Of a DNA stretch of 64,000 bases, positions 1 through 62,577 are shown piece by piece. The position numbers and the translations under genes are program-made. Below the pieces are notes generated by a model, which made no database searches, was not told the origin of the DNA, and saw nothing but the letters and a program-made list of their open reading frames with translations. The DNA is taken from NCBI GenBank assembly GCA_010093485.1, contig MU001497.1, positions 1,295,773 to 1,359,772 on the forward strand, read 5' to 3'. The stretch's first letter is position 1; every line of letters starts with the position of its first letter. This DNA is from Karstenula rhodostoma CBS 690.94. Its lineage: Eukaryota; Ascomycota; Dothideomycetes; Pleosporales; Didymosphaeriaceae.

Positions 1-2166
1 TTTAGCCTTTTACTTATATAGTCTATATAGATTATAATAAGTATTAATTACTAGTCTAAAAAAGTATAATCTACTATATTCTTTTTTTATTAAGTCTAAT
101 AAATAAATAAGGAAGAGCTTAATCCTAATAGTACTCTATTCTAGAGTAGAAAATTAATACTTTAGAGATATAAAAAATACCTATCTATACTTAATAGCCT
201 CTACTATATTAATTTCCTTTTATATTTTAATTATAAGAGTAAAATCCCCTCTAGGTAATTTAGGGCTAAACTATATATCCTATTCTATTATCTATAGTAC
301 TCTCCTATATTAGATCTAGCCTACTTCTATTATATTAAGTTTATATTTTATTATTCCTTCTAGTATATAAATAATATTTATAACTTTTAAGGATAGTTAT
401 TTAAGACTAATACTAAGGCCTATTACTATTATTATATATATTATACCTATAAGTATATTAATTATTATAGAGATAATCTTAATTAGGTAAAGATAAAGGA
501 CTTAGAATTTAAAGAAATACCTATTTAAAACTAATTTAAGTTAAATAAGCTAGTAGCTTAAGGACCTACTATTAATAGTAAACTAGTTAACTAAGATATA
601 TTAGGGTCTAGGCCTATTAACTATACTAAGGACTAGAGTACTAAGGAATATAATAACTACTAGAATCTAAGTAATTTAATCTACTAGAAGTAGTTAATCT
701 AGGAGTATTCTATTACTAGAGTAGAATAGCCTAATACTAATTCTAATACTCTAGCTACTTAATAAAGGATTACCTTTAATATAGTAATAAATTATTTTAA
801 AGTAATCCTTAATAAGAGGATATTACTATACCTTCTTATTAATCTTAATAGGAAAGCTAGTACTAGTAAAACCTATATTATTAAAATAATTTTAACTTAC
901 CTTAATTAACTAGCTAAGGAAGTAGGTATACTATCTTCTATTATCTAATCTATACCTATTAAAATTATTATATTTCTAATTAATAGCTAAATAATTAATA
1001 GTCTTTTCTAGATTCTAATTATATATATAGGAGGGATTATACTACTACTATCTACTATTATTCTATAGTAGTTATAGTTTACTTTCTCCTCTATATACTA
1101 TTTTATTATTAATAAGAAGTTTATAGTTAGTCTTAATATACTAGTTTAGATTAGTATTTAACTTAGTAAGATCTATCTTTAATTTATATACCTCCCTTTT
1201 ACTAGTCTAAATATTATTATATCTAGAGATTTTTATTAGTTACTACCTATTATCTAGTAACCTTTATATAATCTATTACTAAGTAAAGGACCTATTAATA
1301 CCTATATAAAGTAGCTCTACTAGTAATTCTTAAAAACTATTATTTTTAATACTATTTAATACTAATAAGGAAATAGTAAAGCTAACTTTTAGAATACCCT
1401 CTTATAACTTTAAGTTAATAAAAGTACTTAGTAGGACTAGTTACTATTCTAAACTTATTATAAGGCTATTCTTTTAAATTTAGAGATAAATATTTTTTAT
1501 AATTCTATATACCTCTATACTAAGTACTATAAGGTTAATATAATTAATTATAATTATTTTTAGGACTAATACTAGCTAGTATTAGCCTACTATACTAAAT
1601 ATAATAACCTTATATATATAATAATACTATTAATAGAAGCTAGTAATCTAGAGAATAAACTTCTCCTTTTTATTAATACTAAAGTTATACTTCTAGCTAA
1701 TACTTAGACTAAGTATAGTCTTATTAATAGAGCTATTAGTAAGGTTAATAATATTATATAGTATCTAGCTACTATAAACTATATAAAGGAACCCCCTTTA
1801 ACTATTTTTACTACTTTTAATTAGTATATAGGGCCTAGTCTATATACTATAGAGATAGGTAAAATAGCTATACCTATTTTTCTTATATCTTATAAATTCC
1901 TTTATAACTAAATAGTTATTATATAGGTCTAGTTTCCTCTCTATTTAGTATAGGCTATTATAGTATATAAGTCCTAAGGTTTTAATTTTACTTTAACTAG
2001 AATATTTATATCTAGAGAAAAGAACTTTATTACTAGTTTACTATATATTACCCTATTATATATATAGAGTATTAAAAGTTTTATATTTAAAACTTCTTTT
2101 CCTTTCTAGTATTTAAGGTCTAAAGATAGGAAATATATAAAAATAAAAAAGAAGAATAAATAATAA
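1..2166 (+). pseudogene. PIF1-type DNA helicase relic (Helitron-like)
   Basis: This is a decayed superfamily-1 helicase of the PIF1 type, the helicase half of Helitron Rep/helicase proteins. Its motifs lie in one frame (codon starts at positions 1, 4, 7...). Walker A at 847-873 reads NRKASTSKT, which becomes DGKAGTGKT when G-to-A changes are reversed. The Walker B-like IINKK at 1105-1119 corresponds to IIDEK. RDFY*LLP at 1225-1248 corresponds to GDFYQLPP. AIIVYKS*G at 1954-1980 corresponds to the AxTVHKSQG box. The C-terminal part up to about 2166 fits the end of the PIF1 fold. The frame holds for over 1.1 kb despite dozens of stops, so the damage is point mutation and not indels. The 5' part, where a Rep domain would be, lies outside the window. 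A host PIF1 copy is possible, but the residues upstream of Walker A fit the Helitron linker better. Confidence 0.85.
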
Positions 2167-3882
2167 AGATTAAATTAGTTACTTTTATATTTAGGAATTA
2201 TCTTCTAGCTATTATAAAGTCTAATACCTTTTAGTATACCTAATACTATACTTTCTACTAATTTATTATCTAGTCCTTATTTTTAATACTATAAAGTATA
2301 TCTATAATTTAATTTATATTATTAGGTAAATTTTCTTTATTACTAAATATTATATCTAGAATATAAGTAGCCTCTTTATTAGTAAATCTACTTACTTTAA
2401 ATATATAGTCCCTAACTTATTAGTAATATCTAATACTATAGCTAATATTTTACTTATAAAGTAAAGTATAGTATATACTTTTTATATAAACTAGGAAGTA
2501 GTAGAGTAATATCCTCTTTATATATATTCTAGTATACTATATAGACTATAGATTAGTAGAAAAAGCTAGTAAATTAGACTATATAGAATAGACTAATAAG
2601 TATTCTCTCTTATTTAGACTATAGAATTATAAATAGTAGGTAAGTAATTCTTAAAATCTTATATATAGAGAGATATTATATAGCTAATAAGGTTACCTTA
2701 TATAGTATATAATACTATATTAAATTAGTTAAGAATACTATAGTTTAAATAGGAACTTACCTTTATACTCTTTTAAGCTAATATTTTTTTTATTAGAATT
2801 AAATTCTAAACTTATATATCTAATCTAGCTAGTATCTATTTAATCTATATCTAGTAGGTATTAATAAGGTATTAGTTTTAAAATACTTATATACTTATAA
2901 ATAGGAAATCTTTATCCTATAGGTTATTAAGAAAAGTTTTAAAACTTTAGTAAAAATAGTTCTACTTCTTATATAGAGTTTTAAAGTATTTAGTAGTCTT
3001 ATCTTTTATAATAATCTAGGTATTAAGTATAGTTATATTCTTAATACTAATCTTAGTATTAAAAACTTTTTATCTAAAGGCCTTCTAGTTTATTTTAACT
3101 TCTTCTTTTTTATTTCTCTTAAGAATAGTAGATAAGTTAAGTAATTACTAATCTAAAGTCTTTAATAATAAGGCTTTAGTATTAATTAAAATATTAAGTA
3201 GTTAGGTAGATATTAATATTATTAGAATTAGAGTAAAGAAACTAGAAATATTAAAATACTAAGCTTACTTCTTTATAAACTACTTAGCCTTAATTTTACT
3301 AATATCTTAGCTAGTATAAGCTACTATTTTATAGTATTAAGTAGTTCTAGTATTAAAGCTATTAAATATATTAGTACCTAATACTACTTAATATTTCTTT
3401 AACTTACTATATTATATTATATATATTATTTAACTAGATATATAACTACTTTAGTATATTAGACTAGTCTCTTATTAGTAGCTAATTAATAATTAGCTAT
3501 ATAGCTAGTAGAAAGGTATTTTTCTAGAACTTAGAATAATATATATTATCTACTATTTTATTATACTCTATAATAAGCTCTTTACTAGTCTTTTTTATTT
3601 AAGTAGCTATATTTTTCTTTATACTTTTATTTAAAGAGTACTCTTTAGTACCTTTATACTATTTAATATTAAATAGGTCTATTATAGTAGAGGTATTAGG
3701 TAAGTATTAGATATAAGGTAATAGGTAGGTATTAGGTATAGAATAAGTAACTATATAGTCCTATAATATAGAGTATAAAAGAAAGGTAATAAAGGTAAAT
3801 AGAAAAAGTTATTAATAAATATTATAAATAAATTTTATATAATTAAACCCTACTATTATATATCTATCTATTAAGTACTTAT
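2167..3882. other. unassigned RIP-degraded sequence
   Basis: No motif could be recognised in any frame. Composition matches the neighbours, with CA and TG nearly absent. It follows the helicase relic directly, so it may be the 3' part of the same Helitron-like element, but no Helitron terminus (hairpin followed by CTRR) was found. Confidence 0.4.
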
Positions 3883-4235
3883 ACTATAAATACTAAAATA
3901 TTTTTACTTATTTAAGTAAAGATAAATATACCTTACCTAAAAGTAGGAATATTCTATTACTTTTTTTATTATATAGACTAATACTACCTAATACCCTATA
4001 TATATTTAAGATAGTTTAAATATATTAAGTTTTTATAGAGTTAGAATATATTTACTTTTTATTCTTACTATAAATACTAAGGCGCCTTTATAATTTATTT
4101 ATTAAAGTAAAGGTAAATATATCTCGCCTAAAAGTAGAAATATTTTATTACTTTTTTTACTATATAAACTAATACTATCTAATACCTTATATATACTTAT
4201 AATAGCTTAAATAGGTTAAGTTTTTATAAATATAG
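3883..4235. repeat. tandem duplication, period about 184 bp
   Basis: Unit 1 (about 3883-4040) and unit 2 (about 4067-4232) share the same order of blocks: ACTATAAATACTAA, then AAGTAAAGRTAAATATA, a CTAAAAGTAGRAATATT block, a T-rich run, AGACTAATACTA and a final AAGTTTTTATA. Unit 2 keeps GGCGCC and TCGCC where unit 1 has AT-rich sequence, so the two units were mutated independently after duplication. Confidence 0.7.
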
Positions 4236-4592
4236 AGTTCTTTTTCTAATTTATTACCTTTTACCTTTACTTTTTTCTAGTTTACTTTTACTTATATTAT
4301 ATACGCGCGCTAAGTAAGCCTATTATATAATTTATATAAGTACTATAATTTTTACTCTTTTACCCTCTCTCTTCTTTACCTTAATACTATAAACTATTAA
4401 CCCTCTTTAATTAATTCTACCTATAAATAATCTCTATAAATTTACTAGTATAGTATTATATAAAAAGATTAAGCCTTTATACTCTATTAATAGTAAGGGT
4501 AAGGATAAGGCTAAGACTTAAAATAAGTTAAGTATTAGTTCTAAGTATTAGCCCTATACTTATATATTATAGCTAGTCTATCTAGTTATCTA
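4236..4592. other. unassigned interval before the H3-like pseudogene
   Basis: No recognisable coding. A small CG-bearing patch (ACGCGCGC near 4303) survives. By position this would hold the promoter of the H3-like gene, but no promoter element can be identified with confidence. Confidence 0.3.
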
Positions 4593-5130
4593 ATAACTAC
4601 TAAAACCCTTTATAAGACTACTACTTCTAGTTTACCTACTAAGGCTTAGTAATCTACTCTAACTATTAGTAGTATTAAAAAGCCTTATTACTATAAATCT
4701 AGTAGTAAGTATAGTACTAGTATTAGGCTAGTATTAGGCTAATATTCTTTAGCTATAGCTTTTTATAAGATTTATTAGTTCTAGAAGAATACTAACTTAT
4801 TTATCCCTAAGCTACTATTCTAGTGCCTAGTAAGGGAGATAGCTATTAATTATAATATCTTCTACTTTACCTACTATACTCTCCCTAAGACTATTAATAA
4901 AAACTTAGTCTATAGTTTTTATTTCTAGCCTAATACTATTATAGTTCTTTAAGAAGTCTCTAAGGCCTTTCTAGTTTATTTTTTTAAGTATAAGTACTAG
5001 TTCTAGTATTAGGCTCTATTATATTTATTAACTAAATTTAGGTATACTACTAGCCTATATCTATACTAAGTATATTATTATTATAAAATATAATATCTAG
5101 TATATTTACTAACTTACTAGGATAATTAAT
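4593..5130 (+). pseudogene. RIP-destroyed histone H3-like gene with introns
   Basis: Four blocks line up with histone H3, and most mismatches are C-to-T or G-to-A. Tail: 4653-4703 reads STLTISSIKKPYYYKSS against H3 residues 28-44 (SAPATGGVKKPHRYKPG). Helix N and alpha-1: 4755-4844 matches V46-A75, including KLLF*CLVREIA for KLPFQRLVREIA. Alpha-2: 4917-4988 matches L82-E105, including L*EVSKAFLVYFFK for LQEASEAFLVxLFE. C-terminal block: 5059-5115 matches I112-L130, reading ITK-YIIII then NI* and IY*L. The blocks are separated by a 48 bp insert with intron signals (GTAAGTAT at 4705, CTAAT branch site, TTTAG ending at 4752) and by about 54 and 52 bp of extra sequence, also intron-sized. A likely start is ATA at 4593 (from ATG). 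The K-K-P-H-R-Y tail and PFQR favour canonical H3; F at residue 99 recalls CenH3. Non-RIP mismatches exist (for example P at R63, and residues 76-81 and 106-111). Confidence 0.85.
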
Positions 5131-5554
5131 CCTTACTAGAATATATTATTTTAGTTTATCTAGCGCTAGGCTTATATATAAGTATTAGGCTAGATATTAG
5201 AACTAATACCTCTATTTACTAATTATATTTTAGGGTATTTATATATAAAGAATAAAGTTTATAATAGTAATAAGTTTTTATTAATTAGGTTTTTAAGGAA
5301 AATACTACTCTCTAGAGTTTAGTAGGTAATTTAGTACTACCTTAATAGTAGTATAATACTAGGTAAAATACCTCTTTAGTATAGTTAGATAGTTCTAGCC
5401 TATTTAGCCCTACTAACTATACTTTCTTAAATTTTTTTTTTTTCTATACTATAATTCTTATATAGTTACTATATACTTCCTCTTTTATCTTTATAGGTAA
5501 TAAGGGTTTATTATAAATATACTAATTTAGTTTATATAGATTAGTAATATATTT
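5131..5554. other. unassigned interval
   Basis: AT-rich sequence between the H3-like pseudogene and copia copy 1. It may include the 3' flank of the H3 gene. No copia LTR is present here, so copy 1 ends abruptly at about 5555. Confidence 0.3.
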
Positions 5555-8500
5555 TTTATTTTCTAGTAGGTCTACCCTATAAATAGCTAAGAGATAGACT
5601 TATAAGAGGCTATATATACTTTTAAATATAATATATCTACTCCTTATAAGTATTATACTTTATAGTAACTCTATAAAATAGGCCTAAATATTAATTATTA
5701 TAGTATAGATTAGTAGTAGTCTAATTTTAATTACCCTAAGAAGTATTTATATAGTTATAATAAGTTTTTTAAAATTAAGAAATTTCTTATTTATAGTTAG
5801 GGTAGCTTTAGATATAGGTATTTTAAATACTCTAATATATTAGAAATATAGTAGTATACTTAGTTTTATAAGCTCTTTAATTAGATACTTAATATATTTA
5901 AGTAGAATAAATTTTTTTTATTTTTTTTTTATTTTTTCTTTTATTCTCTAGTTAAAAAGTATTTTTTATAATTAAATCTAATAAATCTTTATTTACTTTA
6001 CTTCTTTTATATTTATAATTATAAAACTTATATCTTAAAGGTTAAATAGCTATATAAATTTAATAAACTACTATTTTAATAGTACTTTTATTAAGCTATT
6101 TATAGGTATTTTACTTATTTTAAGATATAAAACCTTAAATAATCCTTTTATATATTCTTATTATAGCTATATATTCTAGATATTAATATAGTAAAGGTAT
6201 ATAGTAATTCTTTTATTTTTTCTAATTACTAGTCTAATTATCTACTAGTTATTATAGTAGATTTATTAGAGTAATCCTAAGTCTAGTATAAGTTTAGTAA
6301 AAAAGTACTTTAAAACTATTATTTCTTTATTAATATACTCTAGAGTAAGAAGCTCTACTTCTATAGTTAAAATTATAATTATACTTTAATAAGCTATCTT
6401 CTATAGAATAGTACTACTAAATAGTAAAGTAATATACCTATAAAATAATTATTTTATTAATAGATTATCTATAAAAGATATATTTCTATAGATAAGTAGG
6501 TTTAGACTATTATATCTACTAAACTAAATTACTTTCTAGCGTATCCTATAGAGGTATAAAATTACTTAATTAACTACTACTTTATACTTTATACTTAGGT
6601 TAGTAAAAAAGAAGGATAGCTTTAATATAGTAAATATAATATTTAATTATAGTATAATTACTATATATAATACTAATCTAATCTTTTTTTAATAACTCTT
6701 AATCTATTATAGTAATATTTTACTTTTACTTTTTTTTAAGCTTATTAATTAAGAAAGGAGTAGGTAGAAAGCTATTAGTTTTATAAAGTTTAAATTTTTT
6801 TATAATCTTATTAATATATATATTATATATAAGTATAATTATCTAATTATCTTAGTTTCTAATTACTTATACTTTAAAAAACTACTTAATTAGTCTCTTA
6901 TCTTTAATTTTATATTTATTTATAACCTTATTCTATAGTATTTAAGCTTACTCTCTATAATTATTATAATATAAAAGTAGTATATTATCTATATAAAATA
7001 GTATTAGAATTTTCTAATTTCTAGAAAGGAATAAATAAGGCTCTTCTTTTAAAGCTTTAAGCCCTTTAGCTTTAAATAAGCGGGAAAACTCTTTATACTA
7101 GAGAAATAATAAGTTTTTTAAACTATAAAGAGCTTAATTTAATCTTATATATATTTCTAGTATTTTAAACCTATCTAGAAGTTTATAGGTTATAGAATTA
7201 TCTATTATAATTATAATATTTAGAAATACTTCTATAATATTATATTATTTAATCTTAAGGTTAAACTCTATAGTAATTATTATTACTACTTAAAATAACC
7301 TTACTATAAGTATAGTAGTATAGATTAAGTATAGAATATTTTTTAGTTAAAAGTCCCTTTTAACTATAATATAAGCTTTATAATTCTTAAATTAACTATT
7401 CTAATTAAGCTTATATATAAATATCTATTTTAATAGAAGTAGGTATTCTATTACTTATAATTAAAGTAGTTTTATTTAAGTTCCTTTCTACTATAGGGTA
7501 GTAATCTCTTTAATTATAGCCTATTTAAATAGCTTTTCTAAAGAATAAGAAAATAGATATTTCTAGAATATTAGTTCTAATAATAGCTTATTTCTATATA
7601 GATAAGCTAGTAATATTACTAATTTTAGTTTCTTAAGTATAGCTATTATAACTACTATATTTAGTATTTTATAGCCTTTATACTTATTCTAGGTTTTATT
7701 TACTCCTAGTATAAATATATATATAAAGTTAATCTAGAAACTATTTTTTAAAGATAGATTTACTATTAGTATATATATACTAAAATTTAATTTATCCCTT
7801 AGTTAATTATTATAATCTATATTTTATTATCTTAACCTTTAAACTAGTAAATACCTATTTATTAATTAGTTAATTTTAGATATTTTTTTTTAAAGTTATC
7901 TACTTACTCTATTTACTATAAGGAAGATACACTATTACTTTTAGCTTATTAGTAAATTTCTTACTTTATTTAGTAGTATAGAGTTAGTTATACTAGATTA
8001 AAAGATAGTAGTAGGGTTTTAAAGCTCTTACTTTAAAAAAATATTATTTTAAGGCTCTAATTTACTAACTCTTTTAGTTAAATTCTAATTCTAGTAGTTT
8101 CTAATATCTTTATAATTATATTAATTAGTTTTTATAATATCTAGCTATAGTATTATATCTAGGGTTATAAGTCCTATATTTAAATCTTAGTTTCTATAAA
8201 TTTTTAACTACTAGCTAGCTATATCTATAGCTTATATAGTAGTTAATATTATTACTTTTTAATTCCTTAGCTAGCTATTCTTAGAATCTATCTATTCTAA
8301 TTCTTTACTTTTAAGTAATTACTTAATATTTTTAATTCTTATAGTACTTATATACTTATTTAAGCTAGAAGTAAGATTAATTATATTAAATATATTTTCT
8401 AGATTATTAATTTTATCCTTATAAATACTTTCTATAATTCTTAAAGTTTTTATTTTAAAAAGCTTAACTTTATATACTCTCTAATAAAAGGTTATCTTAT

Positions 8501-11438
8501 TAAATATAATATTCTTAGTTATAATTATTTAATTAAGTATAAAAACCTATATTCTATAAATATTAGAAGTTTAATAGCCTATTAAATACCTAATATAAGC
8601 TTTTAAATTTATTTTAAATCCCCTTCTATTATACCTAGCTTTATAATTCTTTATTAAAGAATATACTTAGTATTTATAGGTATAAATTCTACTCTAGTCT
8701 AGATAGAGATCTACTATTATATATTATATAATTACTAGCTTATAGTATTAAAAGTATTATTAGAACTAGCTATCTAATATTTTATTTAGTAATTAGAAGC
8801 TATATATTATACTTAGGCTTATATTATATAACTAAACTACTATATTTATAATCTCTAACTATAGCTTTATTAGTAGATTCGTGCTAGACCTTATTTTTAC
8901 TATTTATTTAATTAGCTCTTTTCTAGTTTACTCTACTAAACTATTAGTTTTATATATATAAGGTAGTAAAGGGTTAATTATAATTTCTTTTTTAATTATC
9001 TATTCCTTATATTATAATATCCCTTATTATAGAAGTATTATTATATTATTATTCTACTAGATTTATATAATTTAGAGCTAGTACTTATTCTTTATAAAGG
9101 TTAATAGATATTTTATTAATTATAGAATTTCTAAAAGTATCTTCCCTTATAAATTAAAATTATAGAACTTCCTACTAAATTCTTCCTTTATTATAAGAAT
9201 CTAGGATTTAAGTATTTATCCTTACTCTATATTAAATAGGTCTTATATAATATAGTAGAATAGATATAATAAATATTTATATAATTATTATAAGATTACC
9301 TTACTTATATATATAATTATATAATACTTATATTCTTATTATTATATTCCTTTAATTAATATACTATATATACTAGAAACTAGAGCTTATAAAGCCTTTT
9401 TTCTAAAGTATTCTAATTACTTATACTATAGTTCTTTACTATCTAAGTAGGAGATATTTTCTCTTAATAGCTTAGATAATTAAATTATATTTATAACTAT
9501 AGGATAAGAGTATATAGGCTTATATTTAAAAAAAATAAAATTATACTTATACTATAGATTTATTATTATAATACTTTATTTAATTATTCTAATTCTTAGG
9601 GTATTATCTAAGCTAAGATACTAAATACTAACTTTTTTAAATTAAGCTTCTAAAATAATATTTATATAAAAGTTCTTAACTACTTTTATATTTTTAAGTA
9701 GTAGATTCTCTAATTATTTTTTATTCTTACTATAAAGAATATTCTTAATTAGTTAATTTCCTATTCCTAAAATAGATAGAGCTTAAATTCCTATTTTAAC
9801 TTAGTCTTCTATAGTTACTTTCTTAAAAGAACTAGTAACTAGAAGGTTCTAATTATTAATAAAGTAAATAGTAGCTATACTATCTAAAATTATACTCTTA
9901 GAAAGTAGATAAGAATTCTATATTATATTATAGATTCTATTCTTAAAGACTTTACTTAAAAAATTAATTAGATTAATAAGAGCTATTATAATACTACTAA
10001 AATAGTTAATAGTAAGCTATTTTTTATTATTTATTTTCTAATTAGTACTATTAATCTTAGTCTATAGCTTTAACTATTATAGGAATTTTAGATAGCTTAA
10101 AATCTTATTTTACTTTTTATTAGAAAGGTTAAATACTTAGAATCTATTAATTAGAGTACTAGTAATAACTATCTATAAGTATTAGTATTTAATTAGTTAC
10201 TATTTATATTAGGTATTCTTATAGAAGTAGTTAAAATAATTATTATTTTATATATTATTAGATAATTCCCTACTAGACTTAGTAGTCTAACTACTAAATA
10301 TTATATAGATACTAGTTCTTTTATAATTAGGGTAGAGTAATTATTTCTAGATTAATACTAAAAATACCTTTCTAATCTTAGAAAGTATTATTATAGGCCT
10401 TCTAAATATCTTATTAAGTAGGATTTATTACTTAATTAAGTAAGACTACTTAGGGGTAATCTTCTTACCTAAAGCTTTAAGGAAATTATAGGTTATAAGT
10501 ACTTCTTTAGTTTTTTTAATTAAGTATATAATTACTTTATAGTAAAGAAGTTACTATTTTTTAAATTAAGTTTTTAGATTCTACTATCTACTCTTTACTT
10601 TATTAAAATAAGTATAATACTATACTTAAATAAAGTTCTTAATTACTTCTTTAGTAGGTACTAAATTATTCTTTAGTATATAAAGTAGATATTATAAGGT
10701 AGATTTATTATTTTTAACTATATTAATTATTACTAGAGTAAGGAGATCTTAGGAGATAGTAGTATAAATCTAGTTCTAGAAATTTTATAGTTTAGAATAG
10801 TATATCTACTAGTTAGAAACTATAGTATAATATTCTATAATTCTTAAAATATAGCTTTCTTTATTCTTCTTATATAATTTAAGCTCCTACTTATAATCTT
10901 TAAGATTATTTAAAGTAACTAGTTAATATAGTTTCTCTAGAATAACTAGTTAAATAGGGTAATTATCCTTAATTAAAGGAACTATTAGACTATCTAGATT
11001 AATTTTAGACTAAATACTTTTAGAGTTTACTTAGAAATATAAGCTTATAAATTAATAAGACTAGCTTATTTAATTAATAAACTAGATTTAAGTAACTAGA
11101 ATAGTTAAATTACTTATAGCTTTATTAAATAAAGAAGACTTTTAGTATAATAGGAGAACCTAAAAGGGTATATTTAAGTAGTAAAGTATATAGAGAGAAT
11201 TATTCTATATTCTAAGTACTAGACTTATAATTATAGTAGAGAAAAGTAGCTTAAATATCCCTTTATTTAGGGAGTGAATTAATTAGATTACTATATAAAA
11301 AAAGATTTACTAAAAAGGCTAATTATATACTATACTTATCCTAAATTAGTTTAGTGCTTAGATTAAGGTACCCCTTATCGTGGCTAATTAGAGCTCTATA
11401 AACCCTAATATTACTAAGTATTATTTATATTCTTAATA
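5555..11438 (-). mobile_element. Ty1/copia retrotransposon copy 1, 3'-truncated
   Basis: Collinear with copies 2 (minus) and 3 (plus) of the same family. Read on the minus strand it has a 5' LTR (11232-11438), a primer site, gag-pol, and pol ending in RNase H. The reverse-transcriptase YVDD region falls near 6985-7000 on the minus strand. Homology stops at about 5555, inside the lysine-rich tract downstream of RNase H, so roughly the last 1.1 kb and the 3' LTR are missing. All frames are full of stops. The right flank of the LTR is ATTTA; no partner duplication exists because the other end is lost. Confidence 0.85.
11232..11438 (-). repeat. 5' LTR of copia copy 1
   Basis: 207 bp, matching the LTRs at 16390, 23222, 55556 and 62578 and the solo LTR at 15559. 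On its own strand it begins TATTAAGAATA and ends CTACTATA, that is, TG...CA ends after RIP. The CCTTATCGTGGC patch keeps CG and TG, so this LTR is less mutated than some others. Confidence 0.85.
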
Positions 11439-11574
11439 ATTTAATATTAGGTTTTTACTAAAATACTATATTAGTACTAACCTAATATCTATATTAGAAA
11501 AAAAAATTATAGTACCTTTTATTACTTACTTATTTAATAGTTTAATTCTCTTAACTATCCTTAATTATATTTAA

Positions 11575-13304: not shown

Positions 13305-13598
13305 TATACTACTCTATAGAATACTAATATATATACCTAATTTACCTACTTTTAAATTTAATAATAAACTTATAAATACTAATTTAAAACCCTTTTTATA
13401 AATATTATTAATTAGTAATATTTAATAAATATAAACGTTAATAAGGTATTTATACTATATTAAATTTAATATTTCTTTTTTAATTAAAATAAAAACCTTT
13501 CTTAAAATTAAATAAATAAGAAGTAATTTAGTTATTAAAAATATAAAGTTTATTATAAATATACTAATAGAGTTTTACGTAAATTAGTAAGATATTTT
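13305..13598. other. unassigned interval
   Basis: About 290 bp of AT-rich sequence between retroposon H and copia fragment 4. Nothing is recognisable apart from the H target duplication at its left edge. Confidence 0.3.
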
Positions 13599-15271
13599 AA
13601 GATATCTTATTAGAGAAATATTACTATATTATTATCTTATTAAATTTATATTATTTAAAGCTAGTACTTATTTTTTACTAAGGTAGATAAGTATTTTATT
13701 AATTTTAGGATCTTTAAGAGTATCTTTCTTTATAGATTATAGCTATAGAATTTCCTACTAAACTCTTCTTTTATTATAAAAATCTATAATTTAAGTATAT
13801 AGTATTACTCTATATTAAAAAGATCCTATATAATAGAATAGAATAGATATAGTAAATACTTATATAGTTATAATAAAATTACTTAGCTTATATATATAAC
13901 TATATAGTGCTTTTAATTTCTTTATTATATTCTTTTAATTAATATACCTTATATATTAGAAACTAGAGCTTATAGAGCTTTCTTTTTAAGGTATTTAAAT
14001 TACTTATACTATAGTTTTTTATTATTTAAGTAAAGAATATTTTCCTTTAATTATTTAAATAGTTAAATTATATTTATAATAGTAGGATAAAAGTATATAG
14101 GCTTATATTTAAGGAATATAAAGTTATACTTATAATATAAATCTACTATTATAATACTTTATTTAATTAATCTAATTCTTAAGGTATTACTTAATCTTAA
14201 ATACTAGACTCTAGCTTTTTTAAGGTAAGCTTCTAAAATAATATTTATATAAAAGTTTTTAATTATTTTTATATTTTTAAGTAGTAGATTCTCTAATTAT
14301 TTTATATTCTTTCTATAAAGAATATTCTTAATTAGGTAATTTCTAATTTCTAAGATAGGTAGAACTTATATCTATACTTTAATATATTCTTCTAAGGAAA
14401 ATTTTCTAAAGAAACTAGCTACTAGAAGGTTTTAATTATTAATAAGGTAGATAGTAGCTATACTATCTAGGATTATATTCTTAGATAGTAAATAAGAATT
14501 CTATATTATATTATAGATTCTACTCTTAAAAATTTCTTTAGAAGATTAATTAAATTAATAAAAGTAGCTATAATACTTCTAGAGTAATTAATAGTAAACT
14601 ACTTATTATTATTATTTTCTAATTAGTATTATTAATCCTAGTTTATAGCTTTAACTATTATAGAAGTTTAAAATAACCTAAAATTTCTTTATACTTCTTA
14701 TTAAATAAAATAAATACTCTAGATCTATTAAATAAAGTACTAGTAATAGCTATCTATAAGTATTAATATTTAATTAGTTACTATTTATATTAGGTAATCT
14801 TATAGGGGTAGCTAAAATTATTATTATTCTATATATTATTAGATAATTTCCTACTAGATCTAGTAGTTTAACTACTAAATATTATATAGATACTAGTTCT
14901 TTTATAATTAGGTTAGAGAAATTATTTCTAAATTAGAGTAAAAAATATTTTTTTAATTTTAAAGAGTATTATTATAGGTCTTTTAAATATTTTATTAAGT
15001 AGGATTTACTCCTTAATTAAATAGGACTACTTTAGTGTAATTTTTTTATATAGTACTTTAAGAAAATTATAGGTTATAAGTACTCTTTTAGTTTTTTTAA
15101 CTAAGTATATAATTACTATATAGTAGAGAAGCTACTATTTTTTAAATTAAGTTTCTAGATTCTACTATCTACTCTTTACTTAATCTAGATAGATATAATA
15201 CTAAGTTTAAATAAGATTCTTTATTACTCCTTTTATAGGTACTAGATTATTCTTTAGTATATAAAGTAGGT
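13599..15271 (-). mobile_element. copia fragment (copy 4), internal part only
   Basis: Collinear with copia copy 1 from about 9020 to 10690, covering the gag to integrase part on the minus strand. It has no LTR. The right edge is cut by the T-tract of C element C-a (15272), which must have landed inside it. The left edge at about 13600 is a truncation with no obvious signal. It is more AT-rich than copies 1 and 2, suggesting it is older. Confidence 0.75.
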
Positions 15272-15467
15272 ATTTTTTTTTTAATATAAAGCTACTATTA
15301 TAACTATCTAGTAATAAGGAAATATCTAAAAGTACTATATAGATCTATTAAATAGCTCTAAGAGATAGTACTATTTATAATAAGAAAAAAAGAAAAAAGG
15401 ACGCCTATAATACTAGGCTTAATTAACTAAATATTAATCTACCTATATATATTATATAATATAGTAA

Positions 15468-15558
15468 CACTATAATACTATAATACTATAATACTATAAT
15501 ACTATAATACTATAATACTATAATACTATAATACTATAATACTATAATACTATAATAC
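15468..15558. repeat. 8 bp minisatellite (ACTATAAT)n
   Basis: About eleven near-perfect copies of ACTATAAT. Other C copies have only two to four copies here (for example near 28605 and 40320), so the array expanded in this copy. Confidence 0.9.
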
Positions 15559-15764
15559 TATAGTAGAGAAAAGGAATTTAAATATCCCTTTATTTAGGGA
15601 GCGAATTAATTAGATTACTATATAAGAAAAGATTACTAAAAAGACTAGTTATATACTATACTTATTTTAAATTAGTTTAGTACTTAGATTAAGGTACCCC
15701 TTATTATAGCTAATTAGAGCTCTATAAATCCTAATATTACTAAGTATTATTTATATTCTTAATA
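15559..15764 (-). repeat. solo copia LTR with AATAC duplication
   Basis: 206 bp, full-length LTR with no internal sequence. AATAC precedes it (15554-15558) and follows it (15765-15769). A 5 bp duplication around a lone LTR shows a complete element once sat here and was removed by LTR-LTR recombination, leaving the solo LTR inside C-a. Confidence 0.88.
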
Positions 15765-15815
15765 AATACTAATAGGGTAGTATACTTTTTATTTACTAAT
15801 ACCTAATATATAATT

Positions 15816-16389
15816 TAGCCTAGATTCTAATCTAGGCCTATAGGACTATATAGTATATTTATAATAAAAGAGAGCTTTTTATTTTTCTTTAATACTTATT
15901 TTATATATTTTTATACTTTTTTAATTATTAATATAATACTAACTATTATTTAAATACTAATTCTTCTATTTACTTATACTTACTAATATCCTTAACTTTT
16001 ATCTATAGTTTATAACTTATAACTTATAGCTTAGTATATTATTCTACTACTATTAATATTAATATTATCTATTTATTATTACCTACCTATTATTATTATT
16101 AATATTACCTACTACTTTTTACTTTACCTACTATAGGGTAGCTACTATTACTTTTATATTTATTAACTATATAGGCTTCTCTAACTCCTTAATTATAATT
16201 ATCTTTATTATAAAGTCTAGCTTCTTTTAGCCCTTAAAAACTATTATAATTATCTTTTACTATTTATATATAAAGTCCTTATTCTTAGCTAACTATTATA
16301 GTATTATCCCTATATAGCCTAGGTTAGTAATATTATATTAGTAATACTATATATATATATATAAGAAATTTACTAATAGACTCTATAAT
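15816..16389 (+). mobile_element. C retroposon C-b, 5' half
   Basis: It begins at the C-family 5' terminus TAGCCTAGATTCTAATCTAGG, a RIP-mutated hairpin. It runs through the CTTATAGCTT repeats and the TATTATTA-rich tract to CTCTATAAT, where copia copy 3 interrupts it. It resumes at 23429 and ends in poly-A at 24040. No coding frame is recognised. Confidence 0.82.
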
Positions 16390-16596
16390 TATTAAGAATA
16401 TAAATAATACTTAGTAATATTAGGATTTATAGAGCTCTAATTAGCCGCGATAAGGGGTACCTTAACCTAAGTACTAAACTAATTTAGAATAAGTATAGTA
16501 TATAACTAGCCTTTCTAGTAAATCTTTTCTTATATAGTAATCTAATTAATTCGCTCCCTAAATAAAGGGATATTTAAGCTCCTTTTCTCTACTATA
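16390..16596 (+). repeat. 5' LTR of copia copy 3
   Basis: Starts TATTAAGAATATAAAT (from TGTTAAGAATA) and ends CTCTACTATA (from CTACTACA). It keeps GCCGCGATAAG and TTCGCTCCC. It contains AAGTATAGTATATAAC, a possible TATA region. Confidence 0.88.
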
Positions 16597-16612
16597 GTTA
16601 TAAGCCTAGTAC
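16597..16612 (+). promoter_or_regulatory. primer-binding site, half-tRNA-iMet type
   Basis: GTTATAAGCC starts directly after the LTR. Reversing one G-to-A change gives GTTATGAGCC, the complement of GGCTCATAAC from the anticodon arm of initiator tRNA-Met. Priming from an internal tRNA-iMet fragment is known for copia-type elements. Copies 1 and 2 have the same site on the minus strand (GACTTATAAT, GGCTTATAAT). Confidence 0.7.
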
Positions 16613-16839
16613 TTAGAATATAGAATAATTCTTTCTATATACTTTACTACTTAAATATACCCTTTTAGGTTCTTCTATTATACTAAAAGCCTTTTTTATT
16701 TAATAAAGCTATAAGTAATTTAACTATTCTAGTTACTTAGACCTAGCTTATTAATTAAATAAGCTAGTTTTATTAGTTTATAAGCTTATATTTCTAAGTA
16801 AACTCTAAAGGTATCTAGTCTAAAATTAATCTAGATAGT

Positions 16840-19800
16840 CTAATAGTCCCCTTAATTAAAAATAATTACCCTATTTAACTAGTTATTCTAGAGGAATTAT
16901 ACTAACTAGTTACTTTAAATAACCTTAAAAATTATAAGTAAGAGCTTAAATTATATAAGAAGGATAAAGAAAGCTATATTTTAAGAATTATAGAATATTA
17001 TACTATAGTCTCTAACTAGTAGATATACTATTCTAAGCTATAAAATTTCTAGAACTAGGTTTATACTACTATCTCCTAAAATTTCTTTACTCTAGTAATA
17101 ATTAATATAGTTAAAGATAATTATATACTTAGTTAAAAAAACTAAAAAAATACTTATAACCTATAATTTCCTTAAAGTTTTAGGTAAGAAGATTACCCCT
17201 AAGTAGTTCTATTTAATTAAGTAATAAATCCTATTTAATAAAATACTTAAAAGGCCTATAATAATACTTTCTAAAATTAGAAAGGTATTTTTAATACTAA
17301 TCTAAGAATAATTACTCTACCTTAATTATAAAAGAACTAGTATTTATATAATATTTAGTAGTTAGACTACTAAGTCTAGTAGGAAATTATCTAATAATAT
17401 ATAGAATAATAATTATTTTAACTACCCCTATAAGAATATCTAATATAAATAGTAACTAATTAAATACTAATATTTATAGATAGCTATTACTAGTATTCTA
17501 ATTAATAGATCTTAAGTATTTAACCTTTCTAATAAAGAGTAAAATAAGATTTTAAGCTATCTAAAATTCCTATAATAGTTAAAACTATAAACTAAAATTA
17601 ATAATACTAATTAGAAAATAAGTAATAAGAAATAGCTTACTATTAACTATTCTAGTAGTATTATAGTAACTTTTATTAATTTAATTAACTTTCTAAGTAA
17701 AGTCTCTAAGAATAGAATCTATAATATAATATAGAATTTTTATCTATTTTCTAAAAGTATAATTCTAGATAGTATAGTTACTATTTACTTTATTAATAAT
17801 TAGAACCTTTTAGTTATTAGTTCTTTTAAGAAAGTAACTATAGAAGACTAAGTTAAAGTAGAAACTTAAACTCTACCTATTTTAGGAATAGGAAATTACT
17901 TAATTAAGAATATTCTTTATAGTAAGAATAGAAAATAATTAGAGAATCTACTATTTAAAAATATAAAAATAGTTAAGAACTTTTATATAAATATTATCTT
18001 AAAAACTTAACTTAAGAAAGTTAGTATTTAGTATCTTAGCTTAGATAATACCTTAAGGATTAGAATAATTAAATAAAGTATTATAATAATAGACCTATAA
18101 TATAAATATAACTTTATTTTCTTTAAATATAAGTTTATATACTCTTATTTTACTATTATAAATATAATTTAATTATCTAAGTTATTAAGAGAGAATATCT
18201 CCTACTTAGATAGTAAAGAACTATAATATAAATAATTAGAATACCTTAAAAAAAAAGCTTTATAAACTCTAGTTTCTAGTATATATAGTATATTAATTAA
18301 AGGAATATAATAATAAAAATATAAGTATTATATAGTTATATATATAAGTAAGGTAATTTTATAATAATTATATAAGTATTTACTATATCTATTCTACTAT
18401 ATTATATAGAACCTATTTAATATAGAGTAAGGGTAAATACTTAAATTCTAGATTCTTATAATAAAGAAAGAATTTAGTAGGAAATTCTATAATTTTAATT
18501 TATAAGGGAAGATACTTTTAGAGATTCTATAATTAATAAAACGCCTATTAACCTTTATAAAGAATAAGTACTAGCTCTAAATTATATAAATCTAATAGGA
18601 TAATAATATAATAATACTTCTATAGTAAAGGATATTATAATATAAAAAATAGGTAATTAAAAAAAAAATTATAATTAACTCTTTACTACCTTATATATAT
18701 AAAACTAATAGTTTAATAAAGTAAACTAGAAAAGAGCTAATTAAATAAATAGTAAAAATAAGGTCTAGTGTGAATCTACTAATAAAGCTATAACTAGAGA
18801 TTATAAATATAGTAGTCTAGCTATATAATATAAACCTAAGTATAATATATAGTTTTTAATTACTAAATAAAGTATTAGATAGCTAGTTCTAATAGTACTT
18901 TTAGTACTATAAGCTAGTAATTATATAATATATAATAGTAGATCTCTATCTAGACTAAAGTAGAATTTATACCTATAGATATTAAGTATATCCTCTAATA
19001 AAGGATCGCGAAGCTAGATATAATAAAAGGGGATTTAAAATAAATTTAAAAGTTTATATTAGGTATTTAGTAGACTATTAAACTTCTAATATCTATAGAA
19101 TATAGGTTCTTATACTTAATTAAGTAATTATAACTAGGAATATTATATTTAATAAGATAATCTTCTACTAAGGAGTATATAAAGTTAAGCTTCTAAAAGT
19201 AAAAATTCTAAGAATTATAGAAAGTATTTATAAGGATAAAGTTAATAATTTAAAAGATATATTTAATATAATTAATCTTACTTCTAGCTTAAATAAGTAT
19301 ATAAGTACTATAAGAATTAAGGATATTAAGTAACTATTTAAGGGTAAAAAATTAGAGTAGATAAATTCTAAAAATAGCTAGCTAAGAAATTAAAAAGTAA
19401 TAATACTAACTATTATATAAGCTATAGATATAGCTAGCTAGTAGCTAGGAATTTATATAAATTAAGATTTAAGTATAGAACTTATAACCCTAGATATAAT
19501 ACTATAGCTAGATATTATAAAAACTAATTAATATAATTATAAAAATATTAAAAGCTATTAGAATTAAAATTTAACTAGAAAAGCTAATAAACTAGAACTT
19601 TAGAATAATACTTCCCTAAAGTAGGAGCTTTAAAACTCTACTACTACCTCTTAATCTAGTATAACTAACTTTATATTATTAAATAAAATAGGAAATTTAC
19701 TAGTAAGCTAAAAGTAATAGTATATCTTCCCTATAGTAAATAAGGTAAGTAAATAACTTTAAGAAGAGGTACCTAAAATTAACTAACTAATAAATAGGTA

Positions 19801-21660
19801 TTTACTAATTTAAAGGTTAAGATAATAAGATATAGATTATAATAATTAGCTAAAGAGTAAATTAAATTTTAGTATATATATATTAATAATAGATTTATTT
19901 TTAAAAGATAGTTTTTAGATTAACTTTATATATATATTTATACTAAGAGTAGATAAAATCTAGAATAAGTATAAAAGCTATAAGATATTAAATATAATAG
20001 TTATAGTAGCTATACTTAAGAAATTAAAACTAGTAATATTACTAACTTATCTATATAGAAATAAGCTACTACTAAAACTAATACTTTAGAAATATCTATT
20101 TTCCTATTTTCTAGAAAAGCTATTTAAGTAGGCTATAATTAAAGAGATTATTACCCTATAGTAGAAAGGAACTTAGATAAAGCTACCCTAATTATAAGTA
20201 ATAGGATATTTATTTTTATTAAAATAAATATTTATATATAAGTTTAATTAAAATAGTTAATTTAAGAACTATAAAGCTTATATTATAATTAGAAGAAACT
20301 TTTAACTAAAAAATACCCTATACTTAACCTATACTATTATATTTATAGTAAAGTTATTCTAAGTAATAATAGTAATTACTATAGAGTTTAATCTTAAAAT
20401 TAAATAATATAATATTATAGAAGTATTTTTAAATACTATAATTATAGTAGATAATTTTATAACCTATAAACTTCTAGATAGGTTTAAAATACTAGAAATA
20501 TATATAAAATTAAATTAAGCTCTTTATAGTTTAAGAGACTTACTACTTTTTTAATATAAAGAGTTTTCCTACTTACTTAGAACTAAAGGGTTTAAAATTT
20601 TAAAGGAAGAGCCTTATTTATTCCTTTCTAAAGATTAGAAAATTCTAGTACTATTTTATATAGATAATATACTACTTCTATATTATAATAACTATAAAGA
20701 GTAAGCTTAAATACTATAGAATAAGGTTATAAATAAATATAAGATTAAAGATAAAAAACTAGTTAAGTAGTTTCTTAGAGTATAAGTAATTAGAGACTAA
20801 GATAATTAGATAATTACGCTTATATATAATATATATATTAATAAGATTATAAAAAGATTTAAACTTTATAAAGCTAGTAGCTTTCTACCTACTCCTCTCT
20901 TAATTAATAAGCTTAAAAAGAGTAAAGATAAAGTATTACTATAGTAGATTAAGAATTATTAAAAAAAGATTAGATTAGTATTATATATAGTAATTATACT
21001 ATAATTAGATATTATATTTACTATATTAAAGCTATTCTTTTTCCTTACTAACCTAAGTATAAAATATAAAGTAGTAATTAATTAAGTAATTCTATATCTC
21101 TATAGAATACGCTAGAAAATAATTTAATTTAGTAGATATAATAGTCTAGACCTACTTATCTATAAAGATATATCTTTTATAAATAATCTACTAATAAAAT
21201 AATTATTTTATAGGTATATTACTTTACTATTTAGTAGTACTATTCTATAGAAAGTAGCTTACTAAAATATAATTATAATTTTAATTATAAAAGTAGAGCT
21301 TCTTACTCTAGAGTATATTAGTAAAGAAGTAATAGTTTTAAAGTACTTCTTTACTAAACTTATACTAGACCTAGGATTACTTTAGTAAATCTACTATAAT
21401 AACTAGTAGATAATTAGACTAGTAATTAGAAAAAATAAAAGAATTACTATATACCTTTACTATATTAATATCTAGAATATATAGCTATAATAAGAATATA
21501 TAAAAGGATTATTTAAGGTTTTATATCTTAAAATAAGTAAAATACCTATAAATAGCTTAATAAAAGTACTATTAAAATAGTAGTTTATTAAATTTATATA
21601 GCTATTTAATCTTTAAGATATAAGTTTTATAATTATAAATATAGAAGAAGTAAAATAAAT
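16840..21660 (+). pseudogene. copia gag-pol polyprotein relic
   Basis: The order gag, integrase, reverse transcriptase, RNase H is that of Ty1/copia. The integrase C-terminal half near 18680-19260 reads NSLLPY, then NSLIK at the catalytic glutamate (18719-18721, now AAG from GAG), with fungal-copia NIYRI and NIIFN motifs further on. The reverse-transcriptase box FYIDNIL at 20654-20674 corresponds to FYVDDIL. RNase H runs from about 21160 (LIYKDISFINN) through VELLTLEYISKE (TTEAEYxALxxxxKE in the family) to IYYNN and KIPINSLIKVLL before the end near 21660. Protease and zinc knuckle could not be placed. Frame breaks are mostly stops rather than indels. Confidence 0.88.
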
Positions 21661-21699
21661 AGAGATTTATTAGATTTAATTATAAAAAGTATTTTTTAA

Positions 21700-23221
21700 C
21701 TAAAGAATAAAAGAAAAATAAAAGAAAAATAAAAGAAATCTATTCTACTTAAATATATTAAGTATCTAATTAAAGAGCTTATAAAGCTAAGTATACTACT
21801 ATACTTTTAATATATTAGAGTACCTAAAATACCTATATTTAAAGCTACCCTAACTATAAATAGGAAATTTCTTAGCTTTAAAAAATCTATTATAACTATA
21901 TAGATACTCTTTAAGGTAATTAAAGTTAGGCTACTACTAATTTATACTATAATAACTAATATTTAGGCCTACCTTATAAAACTACTATAAAGTATAGTAC
22001 TTATAAAAAGTAAGTATACTATACTTAAAAGTATATATAGCCTTCTATAAGTCTACCTCTTAATTATCTATAAAATAGACCTACTAGAAAGTAGATAAAG
22101 TAGGAATAAAAGTAGTAAAAGTAAAAATAAAAGTAAAAAAAGTAGAGATAAAAATAGGAATAAAAATAAATAAAAATAAAATAGAAGTAGATAAAATAGA
22201 AATAAAAATAGAAAAAGTAAGAAAAAAGCTAGTTATTAAATAGGAGTTTTATAAAAGTATAAAAAGGGTTTTTTAATTTTTATTCTAATCTTTTAGTATA
22301 GCTTAAATATACTACTATAAATAATTAACCTTATAAACCTATATATAGTTAGTAAAAATCTAAGTAATAAGGAAAATAAGGAAAACTTATACTAGAATTT
22401 AGATTATTATAGAATAGAATAAAATATATTATATATATAACTAAGAATAGTAGACTATAATAATTAATAAAACTTAATTAGATAAATAGAGAATCTAGCT
22501 TATATTAATTTATATAAGTATATATAATAATAAAAGTAGTACCCTATTTACTAGTTTATAATATTATAGTAGAGACTATCTAACCTACTACTTAAAATAC
22601 TTATTAAGTAACTAAAGTAGCTTATTAGCTAGATAGCCCTAATATATTCTTCTTTTATAGTTAGGGGAGTATATAATACTATTAGAGAAGCTTAGCTAAA
22701 AGTATAGGAAGTAGACTAAATAAAAAGATAACTAAATTAATAAGTTATTTAAAGAGTTATAGTAAATCTTTTAGTAATAACTATTTATTTAGTTTTAAGT
22801 CTCTCTTTTTATTTATATACTTTAGTAGTATTATTAGCTATCTAAAAGGTATAAGTAGAGTATTAAAAAGTAAAAGGTAAGAATATACTATAAAATAGAA
22901 TAATAGGGATAAAAAAAAAAACCTTAAAAAGTATAAAAAATATTTTTTTATTCTACCTACCTCTACTAGTTTATACTATATAATAATTATTTATTTTATT
23001 TACTATTATTTACTATACCTAGTTATAAGTCTATTACTATTTATAAGTACTATACTAAGTACTAGAAGACTTTTACTCTAACTAATTAGTATTATAATAT
23101 TAATAATAGTATAATATAAGTAGGAAATTATAATCTAAGCTATATATTTCTAAGGAAAGCTAATCTAAATAATTAAATTCTACTAGTAAATAAATAATAA
23201 GTACTATTTACCTAATAGGTA
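21700..23221 (+). pseudogene. long region after copia RNase H, possible extra ORF
   Basis: Copia elements usually end soon after RNase H, but here about 1.5 kb lies between RNase H and the 3' LTR, and copy 2 has the same region (55762-57260). It contains a purine-rich tract (about 22083-22235) that reads as lysine alternating with valine, isoleucine or glutamate. A second stretch (about 22620-22900) translates with few non-RIP breaks as a glutamine- and lysine-rich, possibly coiled-coil peptide. No family is recognised. It may be an accessory ORF or captured sequence. The last bases before the LTR (CCTAATAGGTA; CCTAAAGGATA in copy 2) would hold the polypurine primer. Confidence 0.5.
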
Positions 23222-23428
23222 TATTAAGAATATAAATAATACTTAGTAATATTAGGGTTTATAGAGCTCTAATTAGCCGCGATAAAGGGTACCTTAATCT
23301 AAGTACTAAACTAATTTAGGATAAGTATAGTATATAACTAGCCTTTCTAGTAAATCTTTTCTTATATAGTAATCTAATTAATTCGCTCCCTAAATAAAGG
23401 GATATTTAAGCTCCTTTTCTCTACTATA
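23222..23428 (+). repeat. 3' LTR of copia copy 3
   Basis: 207 bp. It differs from the 5' LTR of the same copy at a handful of positions, nearly all C/T or G/A (for example AAGGGG versus AAAGGG, and TTAACCT versus TTAATCT), as expected for RIP. Confidence 0.88.
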
Positions 23429-24040
23429 ATAATTATATAGTCTATAGCTATAATTTATAATATTTATATACTAGATTAATTATTATACTAATAGAGATTA
23501 ATTTACTAGATAATATATTAGATCTTATAATATATATAGTTAGATATATCTAGATTACTAATAGATTTACTACTAGTATATACTATATTATATTTATTAT
23601 TAAGGATTAGTTACTTATTATTATTAGCTATTTTAATAGAGTAGGATATAGTATAGGTCTTTTCTTATAAAAGCTAGCTTTTATATATAGTACTATAAGT
23701 TACTTACTACTAATAGGTAACCTCTCTTTTATATTCTTTTTTAAATTATAATATCCTTAATATTTCGCGACTTCTCTATAATTATATATTAAGTATTAGT
23801 AAATAAGGAGTATACTACCCTACTAGTATTATATAGTATTATAGCGTTACTATATTATATAATATATATAGGTAGGTTAATACTTAGTTAATTAAGTCTA
23901 GTACTATAGGCGCCCTTCTTTTTCTTTTATTATAAATAGTACTATCCTTTAGAGCTATTTAATAGAACTATATAATATTTCTAGATATTTCCTTATTACT
24001 TAGTAGTTATAATAGTAACTTTATATTAAAAAAAAAAAAA
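23429..24040 (+). mobile_element. C retroposon C-b, 3' half with poly-A
   Basis: It continues C-b after copia copy 3 and ends TTTATATT followed by an A run (about 24028-24040). It keeps TTTCGCGAC near 23764 and AGCGTTAC near 23842. The two halves sum to about 1.18 kb, close to the full C length. Confidence 0.82.
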
Positions 24041-51907: not shown

Positions 51908-52140
51908 TAGTCTAGATTCTAATCTAGACCTATAGGACTATATAGTATACTTATAATAGGAGAGAGCTTTTTATCTTTCTTTAATATTTATTTTATATAT
52001 TTTTATACTTTTTTAATTAGTAGTATAATACTAACTATTATTTAAATACTAACTCTCCTACTTATTTATACTTACTAATATCCTTAACTTTTATCTATAG
52101 CTTATAGTTTATAACTTATAGCTTAGTATATTACCTTATT
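51908..52140 (+). mobile_element. C-o, 5' end of a C retroposon
   Basis: It begins TAGTCTAGATTCTAATCTAG and runs about 233 bp to AGCTTAGTATATTACC, then meets the T-rich start of C-p. Confidence 0.72.
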
Positions 52141-54157: not shown

Positions 54158-55555
54158 GATATTATAAATTATAATATTAAAAGTCCTATCTTTATAACTA
54201 CTAATTTAAAAATAACTATATAAGTATTTTTAAAAGGATAGATATAACTATAACTACTAAGGAAATAATTATAAGCTATATTTCTAATTATTTATAAAAT
54301 ATTTTATATTAGATTCCCTAAAGATTAATTATACCCTCTAATTTATTACTAATATATATAAAACTTTATAAAGAATAGAGATTTAATTCTAATAATTATA
54401 GAATTCTCTATAAACTAGAATTTAGAAGGCCTTATAAGTAAAGATATTATAAGCTTTAGAATCTCTTAAAAAATAATACTAATTAGTATATAATTAGCTT
54501 AAAAAGTACTAATAATAGCTATATTAATTACCTTATAATATTTTAAATTATATATAAGGATACTAGAAAGAACTTAAAATAATTAATAATAAATAGTAGA
54601 AACTTAAGTATATAGAATATCTTTTACCCTATATTTAATAAAGACTATAAGCTATATTATAGATAATTACTATAAGATAGGGTAAATTTATAAAATAAGG
54701 GGGATAATAAGGTATTATACTTTACTAATATATAGGAACTAAAAAAGTGGCTAAGGTATACCTAGTATCTATATATAGGCTAACTAAAAAGGGGATAGTA
54801 CTAAACTAGCTAAAATAGACTTAGTATATACCCACTAATATATAAGAAATTTAATAATAGAGAGTTAATAAGGTATTAAAACTATAAGCTATATAATCTA
54901 AATTTAATATAATAGTTATTAATATTAAATAGTAGGCCTCTATTATTTATTATACTAAATAACTAAACTATATAACTATTAAAAATAGTTACTAGCTAAA
55001 TTAAATAGATAAAGGCTTATAGTCTAAAGTAAACTTTAGAGGAGATAATAAAGCCTAAGAAAAGAATAAATATAGTAGAAAATAAAGAAATAGCCCTAAT
55101 TAGTCTAAAATAGTACTAAATAGAGTTACTAATACTAATTAACCTATAATATACTAGTATTATAATAAGTAAAGATATATTAAATATAATTATCTTTTTT
55201 TAAATAAGCCTACTATTACTAGTATAAATAATATAAAGTTTACTAAGAATAAATTATATAATTTAGAAAAAGGTAAGATATAAATAGGATTATAGCTATT
55301 CTTTCTATCTATATTAATATAATTATAAATTATATTAACTAAGTTTTAGAGGTTAAGAATATTAGCTCTTTATTTAACTAGTTATATAACTAGTTTAAGG
55401 GGATATTAATAATTAAGGCTAAAGTTAATAAAGAACTATTTAATACTTTTATAGACTTAGTATTAGTGCTTAACCTAGTATTACTATAGATAGTAATAAA
55501 GTTTAAAGCTAATATTATACCTTTAATAGAATTACTATTAAAAGTAGTAAATAAC
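54158..55555 (+). pseudogene. gypsy-3: gag and protease relic
   Basis: Starts after C-p. D5 splits it at 54656-54880. From about 54880 the frame gives gag-like sequence. Near 55455-55500 it reads FIDLVLVLNLVLL, close to a retroviral-type protease ALIDSGASxNLISP after reversing RIP. Copia copy 2 enters at 55556. On its far side (62784 on) the same polyprotein continues, with IKVYNIIVLKI and then IIIYNIFLELF, matching the protease end GYDIILGxxWF and the linker to RT. It is a Ty3/gypsy type but distinct from gypsy-1 and gypsy-2. LTRs are not in the window. Confidence 0.7.
54656..54880 (-). mobile_element. D retroposon D5, short copy (225 bp)
   Basis: ACTATAAGCTAT (12 bp) is duplicated at 54644-54655 and 54881-54892. 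The own 5' end TTTAATACC matches D4. Confidence 0.85.
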
Positions 55556-62560: not shown

Positions 62561-62577
62561 AGTATTAGGCTTATAAT

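Follow-up and report, generated by a model that had tools for sequence, protein, structure and literature searches.

A histone H3-like gene among the RIP-mutated copies of a predicted Helitron-type element in Karstenula rhodostoma

Histone H3 is essential and nearly invariant. What, then, is a broken H3-like gene at positions 4593-5130 of the 64-kb window (the whole stretch of Karstenula rhodostoma DNA that was analysed), and how did it come to be there? An earlier note on this DNA, made from the letters alone, had read it as a duplicated H3 gene destroyed by RIP, perhaps multiplied by a transposon, and had warned that the genome thereby risked mutating an essential histone gene.

A diverged member of the histone H3 family

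Translation of 4593-5121 in the window copy contains all four H3 blocks, in order, as the earlier note had it. With exons joined and stops replaced by X, this copy retrieves PDB H3 chains at a best E of 2.6e-10; its score against the Pfam Histone model is under the cut-off of 26.4 (13.2 bits, E 0.11), and the unspliced window frame has no Pfam match. The joined exons of L035, the least mutated copy among those read and used for reading only, reach E 1.4e-11 with PF00125 and E 8.5e-19 with PDB H3 chains. Searches of the H3-like translation against proteins returned nothing at E 0.001 (among 10 and among 381 candidates), probably because RIP leaves few shared words. We conclude that the gene is a member of the histone H3 family, with histone-fold similarity.

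When the window copy is aligned with the intact host H3 gene (L001), 149 bases in the 102 codons compared (residues 26-77, 82-105 and 107-132) are identical, where 1000 shuffles of the host codons never gave more than 93. The differences comprise 102 C>T or G>A changes, 3 transitions in the reverse direction (T>C or A>G) and 52 transversions, in agreement with the earlier claim that most mismatches are of RIP type. When 21 of the 46 copies described below are pooled, the host amino acid together with RIP would explain 83 of the 102 residues. It would not explain the other 19, a group that includes residues 27, 54, 63 and 99 and several in the C-terminal block, which is the weakest (22 of its 78 bases neither match nor are of RIP type). 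With every C>T or G>A difference counted as a former match, the pooled copies agreed with host H3 before RIP at 254 of 306 aligned bases at most (83%), and this agreement lies in pieces interrupted by the intron and by an insertion. Codon 27 is CAA (Gln) in one copy of 21 and TAA (stop) in the other 20, and the tail before the KKP motif is about eight residues shorter than that of H3, with 4593 taken as the start codon; the canonical tail seen by the earlier note did not withstand this, and the divergent variant that it had allowed for gained from the underivable residues. Because 19 residues cannot be derived, residue 27 is Gln or a stop, and loop 1 carries an 18-residue insertion, the gene has neither the near-invariant sequence nor the full tail of canonical H3.

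Table 1. Features of the H3-like gene and its predicted carrier, in window coordinates
Feature	Position	Strand	Remarks
RepHel C-terminal part (PIF1-type helicase, predicted), many RIP stops	1..2142	+	frame runs on for about 827 nt (Rep part) to the left of the window
Element between RepHel and H3-like gene	2181..4592		no domain recognised
H3-like exon 1	4593..4704	+	probable RIPed start ATA; tail short and divergent; block resembling KKPHRYKPG; ends with base 1 of the Thr45 codon
Intron in Thr45 codon, phase 1	4705..4752	+	position as in host H3 gene
H3-like exon 2	4753..4988	+	residues 45-77 and 82-105, 18-residue net insertion in loop 1
Putative second intron	4989..5043	+	phase not exactly restored
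H3-like C-terminal block, residues 107-132	5044..5121	+	+1 frame, weakest block
Element 3' end	5122..5555	+	right boundary common to window copy and 20 other copies

Codon 4593-4595 is ATA in all 21 copies, the product expected of RIP on ATG, and 4593 is probably the start codon of the gene; a further exon may lie upstream. The intron in the Thr45 codon keeps GTAAGT in 16 of the 21 copies and ends in CTAG or TTAG in every one, and host H3 has an intron at exactly this place, its codon likewise split after the first base, which is the shared position that the earlier note had named as support. The host intron near residue 9 has no counterpart in the H3-like gene. Where H3 has 12 nt between residues 77 and 82, this gene has 66, a net in-frame gain of 18 residues within 4851-4916, and we read this insertion as coding because its reading frame is free of stops in 21 of 21 copies and both other frames are stopped in all of them. 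The 55 nt of the putative second intron are intron-like (GTATAAGT ... TTTAG in L035 and L024), and their ends put the last H3 block one base out of phase, so that the gene may have been broken by a frameshift before it was amplified. Exonic stops are present in each of the 21 copies read base by base.

In its F at residue 99 and its extended loop 1 the gene also resembles CenH3, which raises the alternative that a copy of the centromeric histone gene was wrecked here. At the 17 residues where host H3 and host CenH3 differ, only CenH3 fits the H3-like gene at 3, a further point for the divergent variant of the earlier note, but only H3 fits at 9, both fit at 2 and neither at 3. Alignment to H3 and CenH3, as the note had proposed and here with the two host proteins, puts H3 closer, with 69 of 85 compatible residues against 63 of 85 for CenH3. 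Host CenH3 is moreover split at about residue 71, not 45, and reads through at Thr45, and an insertion of 18 residues far exceeds the usual CenH3 loop extension. On the diagnostic residues we reject CenH3 identity, and we regard a centromeric origin as very improbable.

The repeat that carries the gene

A protein search of the genome with the H3-like sequence gives at least 48 matches, of which 46 are copies of the family and the other two are host H3 and a C11 fragment, and a DNA search with positions 4200-5500 gives at least 40 long matches, the window included (40 scored of 64 candidates). The repeat family extends over 2300-4500 (40 scored of 70 candidates) and still over the 1000 nt to the left of the window (again 40 scored of 70). 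In 41 of the 46 copies a helicase piece lies on the same strand within 12 kb upstream of the H3-like gene, at a spacing of 2447-2478 nt in 31 (exactly 2472 nt in 25) and of 1.3-10.7 kb in the other 10; the remaining 5 copies have no helicase piece within reach. The 484-residue helicase stretch itself has at least 68 matches in the genome.

A helicase profile made from three copies (A1) aligns over its whole length, at E 2e-105 and 34% identity, with P0001, a 1022-residue protein that contains Helitron_like_N (PF14214) and PIF1 (PF05970). By tblastn, residues 20-1000 of P0001 match the window copy in one frame from window position -827 to 2142 (L044 173-3142; E 1e-85), an alignment that takes in the Rep stretch, and at a limit of E 0.1 the genome contains at least 51 matches to the Rep half of P0001. 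PF05970 reaches E 7.8e-5 and 22.8 bits in L035, under its cut-off of 25.9. A search of the RIPed genome with the PF14214 model gave no match, its controls being silent too; two Rep-side pieces compared with Pfam yielded neither PF14214 nor another relevant match; and six frames of about 2170-4050 and four frames to 4600 in L035 gave no Pfam match at a sensitivity lowered by RIP. Judged from these alignments, a Rep HUH region and a PIF1-type helicase appear to share one frame, as expected of the Helitron superfamily, and we assign the carrier of the H3-like gene, read from RepHel to its 3' end, as a predicted RepHel-encoding, Helitron-type element. The multiplication by a transposon at which the earlier note could only guess is thus seen in 46 copies, and the transposon would be of Helitron type. 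Between RepHel and the H3-like gene the element also contains a direct duplication of about 170 nt (82%; 3882-4045 and 4066-4236), present in other copies read as well.

Canonical Helitron1 elements end in CTRR at the 3' side, with a hairpin just inside, and the preferred Helitron target lies between TTA and T. The copies here end in ...TAATATATTTT, which is not derivable from CTRR by RIP, and because its 3' end lacks CTRR we do not file the element as a canonical Helitron1. Three 3' junctions (the nested L027 and L040, and the window copy) fit insertion between TTA and T, provided that the last T belongs to the host. Beyond the common TTTT, 20 of 20 other copies continue with A and the window copy with T, and a site between T and A would also fit. 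A LINE, suggested by a common right end with varying left ends, was dropped, as the frames show RepHel and two of the variable ends are the nested insertions L027 and L040. One copy (L029) seemed to pass the common right end, but it sits at a different point of another copy of the LTR-type repeat described below, in which the window copy appears to lie. In the C5 copy L025 the terminal 60 nt or so of the 3' end are repeated side by side, as might follow from a slip in rolling-circle termination.

Could a smaller element with terminal inverted repeats (TIRs), or one of hAT type, have brought the H3-like gene into the Helitron before the latter spread? H3 genes carried by hAT elements are known from Dothideomycetes (PMC3538342, PMC6710886), and the gene here lies between the arms of an imperfect inverted repeat of 38 nt (4530-4567 and 5174-5211). 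That repeat is not clearly above shuffled sequence, however: its score of 18 in the window copy was exceeded by 1 of 25 shuffles, its score of 17 in L035 was reached by 3 of 25 shuffles of that copy, and L024 has its best inverted repeat at another place. The C11 fragment (L045, C11:939450-940250) has no adjoining helicase match and loses similarity at window position 5208, beside the right arm of the inverted repeat, but it is a single case whose left side is cut by another repeat. By eye, no target-site duplication was seen in the 21 copies, and no hAT domain was found in the L035 frames searched, where RIP lowers sensitivity. We consider this route improbable, and prefer uptake by the Helitron-type element itself. 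L045 itself corresponds to about 4798-5208 of the window and comes after a different repeat (40 scored of 229 candidates); taken at one point for a second H3 lineage, it proved to be the same sequence, truncated, more heavily RIPed and lying beside another repeat.

The surroundings are also rich in repeats. RIPed copies of one element that resembles an LTR retrotransposon, three long and one 3' piece, occupy window positions 5557-11466, 13592-15792, about 16360-23433 (minus strand) and 55551-62811, with LTR-like 239-nt repeats at 11228, 15554, 55551 and 62573 and, inverted, at 23222. The H3-carrying element appears to lie inside the first of these copies, whose first 1350 nt or so are absent on its right side. 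Several more repeat families (D1, D2, D5 and D7) fall within 24000-54000, each with 5-10 copies among the matches listed.

RIP in the repeats and the host histone genes

The window, part of contig 6 and at 19.5% GC, is RIPed throughout, with a CpA+TpG count of 132 against 5126 for ApC+GpT, and in 4593-5130 the two counts are 1 and 55. The repeats that carry the H3-like gene combine high copy number, CpA/TpG depletion and a C>T and G>A bias, and are RIP-inactivated. Across 16 full-length copies, variation that is neither C/T nor A/G is confined to 17 of 5540 columns; these copies were therefore near-identical when RIP struck, and a burst of amplification is likely. In the H3 exons no such change occurs in any of 358 columns. 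The least RIPed kilobase of the window, 52001-53000, has a (CpA+TpG)/(ApC+GpT) ratio of 0.38 against 0.03 overall and is possibly a younger insertion.

A PF00125 search of the 44.3-Mb genome for host histone genes gave 8 matches. Host H3 is intact in L001, where the neighbouring L008 is taken as H4, and host CenH3, over L002/L007 (C7:884 kb), is apparently intact as well, its exons parted as noted above. CpA+TpG and ApC+GpT stand at 480 and 398 over the host H3 locus and at 42 and 39 in its coding part: the gene shows no RIP signature, and its CpA/TpG content is ordinary.

The reading from which we started, in which RIP struck a duplicate of host H3 and put the essential gene at risk, can be weighed against these results. 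The dominance of RIP-type changes and the intron position held in common with host H3 speak for it. The locus is, however, one repeat in 46 copies with a helicase piece upstream in 41, RIP of host H3 could not have produced 19 of its 102 aligned residues, and the host gene is free of RIP. Copy number and fixed spacing refute this reading as a complete account, and we give it next to no credence. The intact H3 gene that the earlier note had asked for does exist, but without the RIP scars that the note thought it might carry, and the supposed danger to it finds no backing in ordinary dinucleotide counts or in a pre-RIP agreement of at most 83%, broken into pieces.

Proposed history and known histone cargo

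We propose, with a probability of roughly 0.83, that the H3-like gene was a Helitron passenger: a captured H3 or diverged H3 variant that was amplified with RepHel and then RIPed. In this model, a genomic H3 gene with its intron, or an already diverged variant, would have joined a RepHel rolling-circle element downstream of RepHel; the kept intron suggests uptake at the DNA level. The element would then have burst to at least 46 places with the H3-like gene as a constant component, after which RIP would have detected the repeats, converted almost every CpA/TpG of the copies read to TpA, and wrecked RepHel and the H3-like gene alike. Host H3, single-copy and already too different, would have escaped.

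As for function, the likeliest view from the sequence is that of a hitch-hiking gene with no proven benefit to the element, whose protein may or may not have been made, though it was possibly expressed before RIP. A bolder view holds that at least two unrelated superfamilies (hAT and Helitron) recruit H3 because a diverged H3 counters chromatin silencing, and that the Helitron H3 worked until RIP; it would draw on the replacement of Lys27, apparently by Gln, and on the extended loop 1. We think this unlikely, and rate it no lower because H3 cargo recurs in two transposon superfamilies. If such captures do recur, the benefit to transposons of a histone of their own can be tested by comparing intact with RIPed copies between species.

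Transposon-borne H3 genes are already known from hAT elements. In Pyrenophora tritici-repentis, H3L occurs in hAT elements in 26 mostly intact copies (Manning 2013, PMC3538342). Like the gene described here, H3L is a fixed cargo of a DNA transposon, neither true H3 nor CenH3, with changes in the tail and helix regions; its hAT carrier has terminal inverted repeats, its copies are near-identical and it has ESTs, whereas here the carrier is of predicted Helitron type, the copies number at least 46, and 21 of the 21 read are RIPed (PMC3538342). Pseudocercospora fijiensis has 784 H3-like copies that are hAT-borne, RIPed and taken as intronless (Dhillon 2019, PMC6710886), and hAT-borne H3-like repeats occur in five further Mycosphaerellaceae, six in all (PMC6710886). 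Those repeats share with ours a transposon-multiplied H3-like gene, AT-rich RIPed blocks and an intact host H3, and each element holds two H3 copies, one with a 16-residue insertion that resembles the insertion found here (PMC6710886). They differ in their hAT carrier, with 20-bp TIRs and 8-bp duplications, and in intronless copies taken as captured transcripts, whereas here a Helitron-type element retains the intron at Thr45 (PMC6710886).

Other selfish elements offer partial parallels. Genes captured by the HELPO1 Helitrons of Pleurotus ostreatus are placed, as here, downstream of RepHel, in autonomous elements, but their origin is given as unknown and the word 'histone' is absent from the main text (Castanera 2014, PMC4289320). 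TET/JBP genes, found in Helitrons and further DNA transposons of fungi, Pezizomycotina included, are likewise chromatin-related cargo, but encode a methylcytosine-oxidising enzyme rather than a histone (PMC12730594). Viral H3-like histones show a selfish element encoding a diverged H3, as here, although in viruses and not in a transposon (PMC9145170). Among the open-licence papers (PMC) that our searches listed, none is known to us as an earlier report of H3 in a Helitron. What is new is the Helitron-type carrier with an intron-bearing, diverged H3. With it, H3 would now be cargo of two unrelated fungal transposon superfamilies, and the intact host gene indicates that RIP can erase an amplified H3 relative without marking the essential H3 gene.
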